Assembly (NCBI GenBank): GCA_014378705.1
Contig: JACMND010000120.1
Location: 1 to 32,526, forward strand
Direction: 5' to 3'
Source: Pedobacter sp.
GTDB taxonomy: Bacteria > Bacteroidota > Bacteroidia > Sphingobacteriales > Sphingobacteriaceae
DNA length: 32,526 nt
Both the position numbers and the translations under genes were made by a program. The notes below the pieces were generated by a model. It worked only from the letters and a program-made list of their open reading frames with translations. It had not been told where the DNA came from and did no database searches. Below are positions 16,624-27,943 of the stretch, piece by piece. How positions within the stretch are numbered: the first letter of the stretch is position 1; every line of letters begins with the position of its first letter.

Positions 16624-17701
16624 CTAAAACTCCATCATATACGCTTTTAAAAACTCGTTTAAATCTCCATCCAAAACAGCCTGAGCGCTTGATGTTTCAT
16701 GTCCGGTACGAAGATCTTTAACTAGTTTATATGGGTGCAAAACATAGTTTCTAATCTGCGAACCCCACTCAATCTTCTTTTTATTACCTTCAATAATCGC
16801 CGAGCTCTCCCTACGTTTTCGAAGCTCAATTTCATAAAGTTGTGATTTCAAAAGACGGATTGCATTCTCTTTATTCTGTAACTGTGATCTTGATTCCTGG
16901 TTTTTGATAATGATCCCGGAAGGTTTATGGTATAACCGAACTGCAGTTTCTACCTTATTTACATTTTGCCCACCAGCTCCTCCCGAACGGAAGGTCTCAA
17001 ATTCTATTTCAGCCGGGTTAACATCAATCAATATCGTATCATCAACCAAAGGATAAACATATACAGACGCAAAAGAAGTGTGGCGCTTGGCATTGGCATC
17101 AAACGGAGAAATCCGGACCAGCCGGTGAACCCCGTTTTCACCTTGTAAATATCCGTAAGCAAATTCGCCTTCAAACTGAATGGTAACCGTCTTAACACCC
17201 GCCACCTCACCTTCCTGCATATCCTGCTCCGAGACTTTAAAACCATTTTTCTCGCCCCACATAATGTACATCCGCATCAGCATAGATGCCCAATCGCAAC
17301 TTTCTGTACCACCTGCTCCCGCCGTAATCTGCAAAACCGCGTTTAGCTGATCTTCTTCAGAGCTTAGCATATTTTTAAACTCCAATTCCTCAACTTTTAA
17401 TACAGCAAGTTCATATTGTTCCCGTAACTCCTCTTCCGAAGCTTGTGCAGCGGCAAAAAACTCGTGCATCACAGCGGCATCTTCTACCGCCGCTTCTGCC
17501 TTTTTATATCCCTCAGTCCAAATCTTTTTTAACTGAATAGAATGAAGTACTTTCTCAGCATCTTTCGGGAAGTCCCAAAAACCCGGTTCTACAGTAATGG
17601 CCTCTTCTTTTTTTAGCTCTTCAAGTTTAAGGTCGACGTCAAAGATGCCTCCTCAGCGACGTTACTCTGTCCCTTAAATCCTGAATTTGTTCTTTTGTCA
17701 T
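16624..17701 (-). CDS. prfB: Peptide chain release factor 2, made by programmed +1 frameshift
   Basis: RF2 reads UAA and UGA stop codons and releases the finished peptide. The gene starts at ATG 17701, reads 20 codons to CTT, then meets an in-frame TGA (17641-17639). Skipping T17641 continues in the +1 frame from GAC at 17640 to the stop at 16624, giving 358 aa, a normal RF2 length. Without the shift the downstream frame opens only from an internal GTG at 17472 and would lack about 76 residues. The stop-recognition tripeptide Ser-Pro-Phe is at about 198-200 and the catalytic Gly-Gly-Gln at about 243-245 in Gly-Ala-Gly-Gly-Gln-Asn-Val-Asn-Lys. The SPF tripeptide separates it from RF1. Production is autoregulated: low RF2 leaves the UGA unread and favours the shift. 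Confidence 0.96.
17638..17653 (-). promoter_or_regulatory. RF2 programmed +1 frameshift site
   Basis: On the minus strand the bases read AGGAGG, CAT, CTT, TGA, C. This is the classic RF2 recoding element: an internal Shine-Dalgarno-like AGGAGG placed three bases before the slippery CTT, followed by UGA in the weak UGA-C context. Order and spacing match the well-studied E. coli prfB site (AGGGGG TAT CTT TGA C). Confidence 0.96.
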
Positions 17702-17850
17702 TCGGCAAAAATATAAAAATAAGCTACTTAAAAGCAGGTAAAATTAATGGATCATAAAAACAATTGAGGTTCGGTTATCTCAATTTTGATACGATCTATG
17801 GAGAAAATCAAAGAATTTTTGAAGCAAGCTTCGATGCTATTATTTAAGGA

Positions 17851-17912
17851 TAGTCCCGCTATACGCTTAAGCCTCCAAAAAAATTGTTGGCTATCGCTCC
17901 TATCGGGTTTAC
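17851..17912 (+). repeat. Dispersed hairpin repeat, copy 1
   Basis: Starts TAGTCCCGCTATACG, has AAGCC and GGCT as inner inverted arms, and ends CTATCGGGTTTAC. The same outline, in inverse orientation, occurs at 27772-27839: TAGTCCCGCTATCCG, AAGCC, GGCTT, CTATCAGGTTTAC. Only the loop between the arms differs strongly. A short extra palindrome, CGGGTTTACAACCCG, overlaps the right end (17904-17918). It lies in the 244-nt gap 17702-17945 between prfB and a small unknown gene; the rest of that gap shows nothing recognisable. Confidence 0.7.
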
Positions 17913-17945
17913 AACCCGCAGGTATTTTGCTTTTAATAATGGATA

Positions 17946-18446
17946 TTATTTCTTGAAAAAACCACCCAATATATCTCCAATGCCGCCTACGCTTTGCTGA
18001 TTGTTTCCTGTTTTGTTAAACAATCCCATAACGTCATTCAGGTCAAATTTTCCATCAGGGCCACTAAATTGCTTTAACATACTTTGCAAATCAAATCCTT
18101 TATCATTCGGATCATTGGTACGCTTCACAAATTTGCTGATTAACCCGGGTATAATGCTGGCCGCAGCGCCGCTAGCTGCTGCGCCACCCAAACCCATGCC
18201 ACCAAGTTTTCCGGCAAAAACATTTTTTATCTGGTCAACAATTGAATTTCCGGAAGATTGATCTCCTTGAAAAAGCTGGGCGATCTCACTATAATTGCCT
18301 GATGAGGTTTTTTCTTGAAGTACCTCAGAAATTGAACTTGATGCGGCGCTGATTGCGTCTTCATTATGCTCATTTGGAATTGCAGGGTTATTAACGATGG
18401 TTTCCTGAGTTTCCTCACGAACCAGATTATCTAAATTTTTTAACAT
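17946..18446 (-). CDS. Unknown small protein with Gly/Ala-rich centre
   Basis: A 166-aa protein that I do not recognise with confidence. The N-terminal 50 residues are acidic and polar. Residues about 69-80 (Ile-Val-Asp-Gln-Ile-Lys-Asn-Val-Phe-Ala-Gly-Lys) resemble an amphipathic helix. A Gly/Ala-rich run (about 81-103) follows, then Phe-Asp-Leu-Gln-Ser-Met-Leu-Lys-Gln-Phe and an Asp-rich loop before a second helix, and the end is Gly-Gly-Phe-Phe-Lys-Lys. The pattern loosely recalls DUF937/YidB-like proteins, but this is a weak impression. There is no signal peptide and no clear membrane helix. It stands 83 nt after the start of its neighbour, the degenerate M16 gene's stop, and ends next to the dispersed repeat. 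Confidence 0.7.
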   Translation of the reverse strand: MLKNLDNLVREETQETIVNNPAIPNEHNEDAISAASSSISEVLQEKTSSGNYSEIAQLFQGDQSSGNSIVDQIKNVFAGKLGGMGLGGAAASGAAASIIPGLISKFVKRTNDPNDKGFDLQSMLKQFSGPDGKFDLNDVMGLFNKTGNNQQSVGGIGDILGGFFKK

Positions 18447-27659: not shown

Positions 27660-27771
27660 TAAAGGGATTTGAGTACTGAGCATTGAAAGATTGTTAATTG
27701 CAAAAACGCGGATTTGAGATAAATTATGCTACATCCACGAACATTTATGGAAGCGAATAGCAGGAGTTAAG

Positions 27772-27839
27772 TAAACCTGATAGCAGTGGAAAGCCATCCC
27801 GGTTTTTACCGGGTGGCTTGCAACGGATAGCGGGACTAC
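27772..27839 (-). repeat. Dispersed hairpin repeat, copy 2
   Basis: Read on the minus strand it starts TAGTCCCGCTATCCG, has a long stem (AAGCCACCCGGT against ACCGGGATGGCTT, one bulged A), and ends GCTATCAGGTTTAC. It shares both ends and the inner AAGCC/GGCT arms with the copy at 17851-17912, in the opposite orientation. It occupies the gap 27660-27943 between the unknown exported protein and the M20 gene; the rest of the gap is AT-rich with no gene. Confidence 0.75.
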
Positions 27840-27943
27840 CAATAAGCGGGTCACCAAACCTTGCTTTTCTAAAAACTTATTAATTAATATTAAAGGCTTT
27901 CTTTTTCTGAACCTATAAAATTTTAACTCTTAAACCGTGTCAA

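Follow-up and report, generated by a model that had tools for sequence, protein, structure and literature searches.

The two short inverted elements in the window (the whole 32,526-nt stretch of Pedobacter DNA analysed here) are copies of Flavo-1, and on balance we consider Flavo-1 to be a dispersed palindromic DNA repeat of Bacteroidota with exchangeable tips rather than a trans-acting small RNA. The elements match the Flavo-1 model, recur as a repeat, are present in some species and absent from others, share one core geometry and, at one locus, exchange their tips under nearly constant arms. New here is that at this locus (“kdp-side”) conservation is higher in the arms than in the neighbouring codons, whereas the tip switches among several palindromes without tree signal.

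Flavo-1 copies in the window and its genome

A scan with the Rfam covariance models identified both window elements as copies of RF01705 (Flavo-1 RNA) that are inverted to each other (Table 1). The first-pass annotation had described two inverted elements with defined ends and different loops, and both are present as described; the strands that match Rfam are, however, the reverse of those it had assigned (plus for the element at 17851, minus for that at 27772). Copy 2 lies above the gathering score of RF01705 (42 bits). Copy 1 falls just below it and is counted as Flavo-1 through its E-value (1.2e-7 in 201 bases, 4.5e-7 in the genome-wide search) and its similarity to copy 2, not through the curated cut-off. 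The two copies align with scores of 53.5 (global) and 39 (local), which none of 2,975 random window stretches reached (maxima of 23 and 28, respectively), so that their similarity is far above the chance level that the annotation had named as fatal to its proposal. The 81-nt stretch around copy 2 folds with −29.5 kcal/mol (z −3.3), and 0 of 200 shuffled sequences were equally stable.

Table 1. Flavo-1 copies and their putative outer arms in the window
Feature	Position	Strand	Basis
Flavo-1 copy 1, type I ends, weak inner hairpin	17848..17914	-	cmscan 40.3 bits
Probable outer right arm of copy 1, CTTGCTTC	17820..17847	-	beyond Rfam model; read from sequence
Possible outer left arm of copy 1, AAAAGCAA	17915..17937	-	read from sequence
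Flavo-1 copy 2, type I ends, inner hairpin CCCGGTTTTTACCGGG	27769..27841	+	cmscan 46.1 bits
Possible outer left arm of copy 2, GAAGCGAATAGC	27749..27768	+	read from sequence
Probable outer right arm of copy 2, CTTGCTTTTC	27842..27869	+	read from sequence

Two further features lie close to copy 1. An open frame of about 52 codons starting with ATGGAGAAAATC (17798–17956, plus strand, found by eye) covers the region of the element and is probably there by chance. On the minus strand, a release factor gene with PCRF and RF-1 domains (16624–17701) starts about 150 nt downstream of copy 1; its 5′ part leads to CTT TGA C, after which the reading goes on in the +1 frame, which we take to be the programmed frameshift known from prfB.

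In the window's genome (3.3 Mb in 209 contigs), the Flavo-1 model has at least 72 matches at E ≤ 1, at least 57 at E ≤ 0.001 and at least 27 above the curated cut-off; these are lower bounds because only 150 of the 726 first-look candidates were scored. The genome-wide search with the consensus ends that the annotation had proposed also returned further copies, the end motif TAGTCCCGCTATNCG (up to one mismatch) occurring 12 times and its reversed control not at all. A lack of further copies in the genome, the other outcome that the annotation had regarded as fatal, is thus contradicted by the 57 or more matches at E ≤ 0.001. Its claim that the elements lie outside genes holds as well, as 71 of the 72 matches (E ≤ 1) overlap no gene called by a codon-usage gene caller. 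Three close inverted pairs were found (C7, C33 and C141).

By placement, 45 of the 72 matches are in gaps between tandem genes (32 sense, 13 antisense), nine lie between divergent and six between convergent genes, 11 have no gene call on one side and one overlaps a call. The excess of sense over antisense copies is significant (binomial p 0.007), and the sense copies sit behind stop codons, at a median of 57.5 nt from the upstream stop compared to 158.5 nt to the next start (28 of 32 are nearer to the stop). This bias speaks against a DNA repeat, as an RNA element would show it. The bias is not general: neither 31 copies in G014, a genome of the same genus (10 sense, 11 antisense, 7 convergent, 3 divergent), nor 25 copies in G258 (9 in sense and 5 in antisense, 6 between divergent and 2 between convergent genes, and 3 that overlap a plain open frame) show it clearly. 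The G014 copies were picked by the core pattern within fetched stretches, and genes were called by codon usage in the window's genome and in G014 and as plain longest open frames in G258.

A position on the sense strand behind stops, together with TTTT in the outer right arm of type I elements, is also what ordinary intrinsic terminators that are alike by chance or convergence would offer. We nevertheless hold this explanation to be very improbable: scans of the two window copies found no G+C-rich stem directly followed by a T-run on the main stem and one small other stem-loop per copy, the similarity of the copies is far beyond chance, and nine of the 72 copies are located between divergent genes.

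Core ladder, folding strand and outer arms

The core was aligned for 119 of 128 copies from three genomes, which could be placed without gaps (nine were omitted for poor arm match). It consists of Watson–Crick steps of two base pairs that alternate with 3 × 3 loops closed by G.A pairs, the middle positions of the loops being free. Four of the closing pairs are A.G or G.A in almost all of the 119 copies (12:63 in 96%, 15:60 in 93%, 17:58 in 90% and 20:55 in 91%), and at the fifth, 22:53, 57% of the copies have A.G and 22% have C.A. The stem covariation test suggested by the first-pass annotation gave a strong result. The ten arm pairs are 93.0% Watson–Crick, whereas 500 shuffles, which do not correct for relatedness among the copies, averaged 60.5% and never exceeded 63.5%; 324 cells show changes on both sides compared to at most 124 in the shuffles. 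Shifting one side by a single column reduces the Watson–Crick fraction to 28–33%.

Strong covariation and conserved non-Watson–Crick positions would be expected if Flavo-1 were a real structured RNA, either an element of untranslated regions or a small RNA, that is under selection at the RNA level while its copies are spread by a repeat mechanism; the G.A ladder would then bind a protein and the tip would be free to vary. This explanation is also favoured by the folding strand. By RNA energies, the more stable fold belongs to the Flavo-1 strand in 60 and to the complement in 11 of the 72 copies of the window's genome, and to the Flavo-1 strand in 20 and the complement in 5 of the 25 copies of G258; the difference is not clear in G014 (16 compared to 13 of 31 copies). 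A better folding Flavo-1 strand in most sets is a point against the DNA-repeat reading, as is the sense bias. By DNA energies, the Flavo-1 strand is the better folding one in all three sets. In a paired comparison, the inner hairpin alone shows no strand preference in the copies of the window's genome and of G014, which speaks against RNA-level selection, whereas it does in G258. Furthermore, G.T (22) and A.C (24) are equally rare among the 1,190 cells. This lack of a G.U excess fits the decay of DNA copies, because a selected RNA helix should prefer G.U. The mixed orientation of the copies in G014 and G258 likewise argues against the RNA explanation.

Outside the core, two types of ends can be distinguished. 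Type I, to which both window copies belong, has TAAACC(C/T)GAT..GC(G/A)GGACTA-like ends, and type II has ends starting with GCGTTA or GCGTGAGGG and a right flank of AACGCCCAA or ACGCCCAA. A TGCTTTTC-like right arm (up to one mismatch) follows 29 of 38 type-I-like copies but is found in only 1.9% of shuffled flanks. An AAAAGC-like left arm is present in 19 of the 38, which supports it weakly because 18% of the shuffled flanks have it too. The flanking letters therefore suggest that type I elements reach about 120 nt and extend beyond the Rfam model, with a well supported right and a weakly supported left arm. In G014, the fetched stretches contain 18 pairs of terminal inverted repeats (TAACCTGAGTTCGATT, up to four mismatches) that belong to 17 elements and are spaced 153–231 bp. 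With up to two mismatches, this 16-mer occurs 52 times in G014, five times in G000 and seven times in G020 (reversed controls: 2, 1 and 1). Given the differing type ends and a terminal repeat that is largely confined to G014, the outer arms differ between lineages, whereas the core is common.

The G014 repeats (18 pairs at 153–231 bp; 52 occurrences compared to 2 in the control) are what would be seen if Flavo-1 were a MITE whose terminal inverted repeats are recognised by a DDE transposase acting in trans. This origin appears quite unlikely to us, as the terminal repeat is largely limited to G014 and the outer ends vary between lineages. The 18 pairs have AT-rich flanks and, by eye, no consistent target-site duplication. 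No transposase-like gene was seen by eye between the terminal repeats in the G014 stretches L141–L180, and the stretches read, which cover part of the 52 places in a genome that is 68% complete, contain no autonomous partner. The one wide pair seen (3.2 kb, C2) encloses open frames that do not look transposase-like by eye, and its first repeat has a nearer partner.

Presence and absence between species and exchange of tips

Within a sample of the phylum, 38 of 247 genomes contain Flavo-1 at E ≤ 0.001 under stricter filters, in line with the occurrence in Bacteroidetes given for RF01705, while 0 of 14 control genomes have a copy above the cut-off. The exact type I pattern has three matches in a public genome collection, all in Pedobacter records, which bears out the link to Pedobacter that the first-pass annotation had made. 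Copy numbers differ widely within the window's genus, from 0 (G012) and 1 (G001, G015) to at least 94 in G014, where every scored candidate matched, and such a range is a further point against the RNA explanation. Window copy 2 is itself a case of presence and absence: none of 20 relatives, G014 included, has Flavo-1 above the cut-off near the orthologous place (within about 4 kb), and the gap that holds the copy measures 334–434 nt compared to 68–225 nt in 23 genomes in which both neighbouring genes are side by side.

The gap between der and era was compared in 30 species of a Flavobacterium-like genus, whose name was derived from the literature and the element content. Flavo-1 is present above the cut-off in 18 of these species and absent from 12. 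Seventeen of the 18 carriers have a copy opposite to the orientation of der, 145–283 nt from the der end, and in G369 the copy is reversed relative to the other 17. On the der tree, presence and absence require eight changes (mean of shuffled labels 9.4). For the 22 species with gaps below 460 nt (12 with and 10 without the element), five changes are needed compared to a mean of 7.6 for shuffled labels, 14 of 300 shuffles giving five or fewer. The range from 0 to at least 94 copies within one genus and the 18 to 12 split at this gap identify Flavo-1 as a dispersed repeat that is gained and lost; part of the pattern at der–era may be old insertion and loss, as 17 of the 18 carriers have a copy in the same orientation. 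By eye, a different hairpin (GTTTCAAGTTTCAGG/CCTGAAACTTGAAAC) occupies the place in several of the species that lack Flavo-1, and such arms enclose Flavo-1 in G360 and G396. A nucleotide-exact empty site was looked for at der–era and no clean junction was found, because other hairpins occupy the place and the intergenic sequence is too diverged; a separate 18-kb stretch examined for an empty site turned out to be a variable region.

In three species, an inverted pair of Flavo-1 copies brackets about 650 nt between era and der (G402, L229; G078, L231; G393, L236). In G402 the bracketed stretch holds an open frame of 197 amino acids that looks CHAP-like by eye. A foreign gene flanked by two Flavo-1 copies is reminiscent of a composite element.

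At the kdp-side locus, the element lies between a kdpC-like and a porin-like gene (named by eye from the protein starts) and is kept at this position in 17 of 17 species compared, which were chosen for a good match to G258 and not at random; G360 was left out because its contigs end in the element. Across 15 of these species, without G302 (arms of another type) and G258 (insertion in the right arm), the arms are 98.3% identical over 38 positions compared to 89.3% for the first 150 coding nucleotides downstream, although the arm identity could not come out much lower because the pattern by which the arms were picked tolerates few mismatches. Fifteen of the 17 species retain a free loop position that is typical of this locus, the T in AGTAG. 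Six palindromes, of which two resemble each other, occur as the inner hairpin: CTTTTTTCTTTAAAAAG in three species, CTGGCTTCTTTAGCCAG in five (one with a base change), GTGCCGGGGTTCGGCAC in five, GTGCGGGGGTTCCGCAC in one, GTGTCTCGTTAAAGAAACGAGACAC in two and the CCGCCGCGG type in one. These tips change at least ten times on the der tree of the 17 species (nine times with the two alike merged), and shuffled tip labels give a mean of 10.2 changes with 185 of 300 shuffles at or below the observed number, so that the tips have no tree signal; the sisters G304 and G082 have different tips.

The tip classes of this locus recur at other loci of G258. The CTGG tip has the same T.G mispair in five kdp-side species and in the G258 copies 677463 and 1458028, whereas the G258 copies 3664060 and 4139892 are without it, and the common mispair speaks for copying of tips rather than correction of palindromes. 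Within the fetched stretches of the window's genome, three of four matches to the palindrome TCCTGAGCGNAGNGAAGGA are in Flavo-1 tips; the G014 and G258 stretches have none. The quantification of tip exchange under constant arms refers to the kdp-side locus only.

Other palindromes occur in and around these elements. In G313, a further palindrome, TCCCGAAGCTTCGGGA, lies within the right arm of the kdp-side copy. Perfect short palindromes of this kind, for example TCCCGAAGCTTCGGGA and TCCCGATAGCTATCGGGA, appear to be inserted at places where related species lack them, in one case within an arm of Flavo-1 itself (L193 in G313, L208 in G302, and the der–era stretches of G430, G390, G350 and G353), and apparently constitute another mobile palindrome family. 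Upstream of Flavo-1 in L193–L207 lies a second hairpin, CCTAACAGGTTTTGGAAACCTGTTAGG or CCTACAAGGTTTTAAAAACCTTGCAGG, in which the species likewise differ through paired changes.

Arms that are conserved beyond coding DNA indicate selection at the kdp-side locus, which a purely selfish repeat would not predict. Chiefly for this reason the structured-RNA explanation, with the sense bias and folding strand of the window's genome also on its side, stays the main rival, even if we judge it rather unlikely. It is in agreement with the listing of Flavo-1 among RNA motifs, in a table of Weinberg 2010 (PMC2864571). Guerin 2021 (PMC9723704), by contrast, describes Flavo-1 matches in F. psychrophilum that are sense or antisense to transcribed regions, with many outside them, and gives no clue to a function. 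A review (PMC9029176) treats Flavo-1 together with the most abundant small RNAs and gives no function for it. The remark of the first-pass annotation that it knew of no functional description stands as far as function is concerned, but the family had already been catalogued as the RNA motif RF01705. The searches of open-access literature made for this analysis returned no paper that presents Flavo-1 as a repeat whose tips can be exchanged.

As a DNA repeat, Flavo-1 would work like REP or ERIC elements. Each copy has three layers, namely outer arms that vary from lineage to lineage, a conserved core and a tip hairpin that is exchangeable as a unit. The arms may be recognised or used as a folded strand, and while this strand is exposed, short-tract gene conversion or template switching might carry tips from one copy to another, perhaps once the hairpin has been cleaved in the manner of SbcCD. 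New loci could be colonised with the help of a trans-acting enzyme or by the same hairpin-to-hairpin recombination, presumably not by RAYT. Where a copy comes to lie in an untranslated region, its RNA hairpin may be put to local use. We propose tentatively that the exchange is active, with the arms and the G.A ladder being recognised and kept and the tip being replaced as a cassette at a rate high enough to erase the phylogenetic signal; the cassettes would possibly come from other copies or from other palindrome families. If true, active exchange could also account for nested hairpins and for how the element spreads. We know of no description of hairpin-templated recombination or mobility of this kind for REP-type repeats.

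Should Flavo-1 be a DNA repeat whose tips can be swapped, then those who count “Flavo-1 sRNA genes” are counting repeats, and covariation in such families is by itself no proof of RNA function. Bacteroidota would then offer a dispersed repeat on which to study the spread of palindromes, and the exchange of their parts, in the absence of a dedicated RAYT.

Mobilisation and comparison with known systems

Against the DNA-repeat reading, the data searched yielded no mobiliser, no clear target-site duplication and no exact empty site. The first-pass annotation had regarded the elements as a REP-like or non-autonomous mobile family and proposed a search for a RAYT gene. Of this, a family of dispersed intergenic multi-copy palindromes with inverted pairs, covariation and presence/absence differences is supported; the link to RAYT is not. 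No match to Y1_Tnp (PF01797) was found in the window's genome or in the Flavo-1-rich genomes G190, G138, G254 and G270. Across the 247 genomes, Y1 genes are present in 30 of 38 genomes with Flavo-1 and in 145 of the 209 others (Fisher p 0.33). Where 14 or more copies were scored, 15 of 20 genomes have Y1, compared to 160 of the 227 others (p 0.80).

Mobilisation of a REP element by RAYT, a Y1/HUH transposase, would account for short intergenic hairpins with inverted pairs, and GTAG is found on the complementary strand at one end of 8 of 38 type-I-like copies. Among 20 Y1 loci in genomes with Flavo-1, a single one (G206, L253:1708–1850) has Flavo-1 beside the gene, a sub-threshold match of 36.4 bits just upstream, and two have a copy above the cut-off at 1–2 kb from the gene, so that no cognate Y1 transposase flanked by the element was found. 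By eye, the gene is surrounded by other short palindromes at many of the 20 loci. Together with the lack of a PF01797 match in the window's genome and the lack of association, these loci largely refute RAYT as the mobiliser, and we give this explanation hardly any credence. In the stretches L242–L261, many Y1 genes of the Flavobacterium group are flanked by palindromes of their own, for example GCTCCGCTGGAGC, ATTCCGTCAGGAAT and CCCACGGTTTCAACCGTGGG. Searches of phages, plasmids and viruses with one Flavo-1 copy of the Flavobacterium group and of viral contigs with one exact consensus pattern, a strict form of matching, returned no match.

Among known systems, RF01705 shares sequence, structure and phylum with the window elements. 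It is, however, catalogued as a small RNA of 76 positions, whereas the elements described here are a dispersed repeat with conserved flanks and exchangeable tips that measures about 120 nt in type I and 153–231 bp between the terminal inverted repeats of G014. Like REP and BIME elements, Flavo-1 consists of short intergenic palindromes in many copies, with inverted pairs and a preferred, mismatched folding strand. A survey of REP elements describes GTAG and CGTC superfamilies (PMC3733652), and a Bacteroidetes subclass of Y1/RAYT transposases is described as having atypical flanking structures (PMC6006769). Unlike REP and BIME elements with RAYT, Flavo-1 occurs in a genome in which no RAYT was detected and has no regular GTAG tag, and the Y1 genes of related bacteria are surrounded by palindromes other than Flavo-1.

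ERIC is an imperfect intergenic palindrome of about 120 nt, for which we know of no transposase. Flavo-1 resembles it in length, imperfection, intergenic location and the lack of a known transposase and differs in sequence and phylum; to our knowledge, tip exchange of the Flavo-1 kind has not been described for ERIC. With integron attC sites, Flavo-1 shares a folded single strand, conserved arms and a variable terminal structure, but by eye it does not have the RYYYAAC...GTTRRRY boxes in that order. A matching geometry is known for (TGGAA)n satellite hairpins, in which steps of two base pairs alternate with GNA/GNA loops closed by G.A pairs; Flavo-1 would be the heteropolymeric counterpart and has, in addition, a distinct tip.
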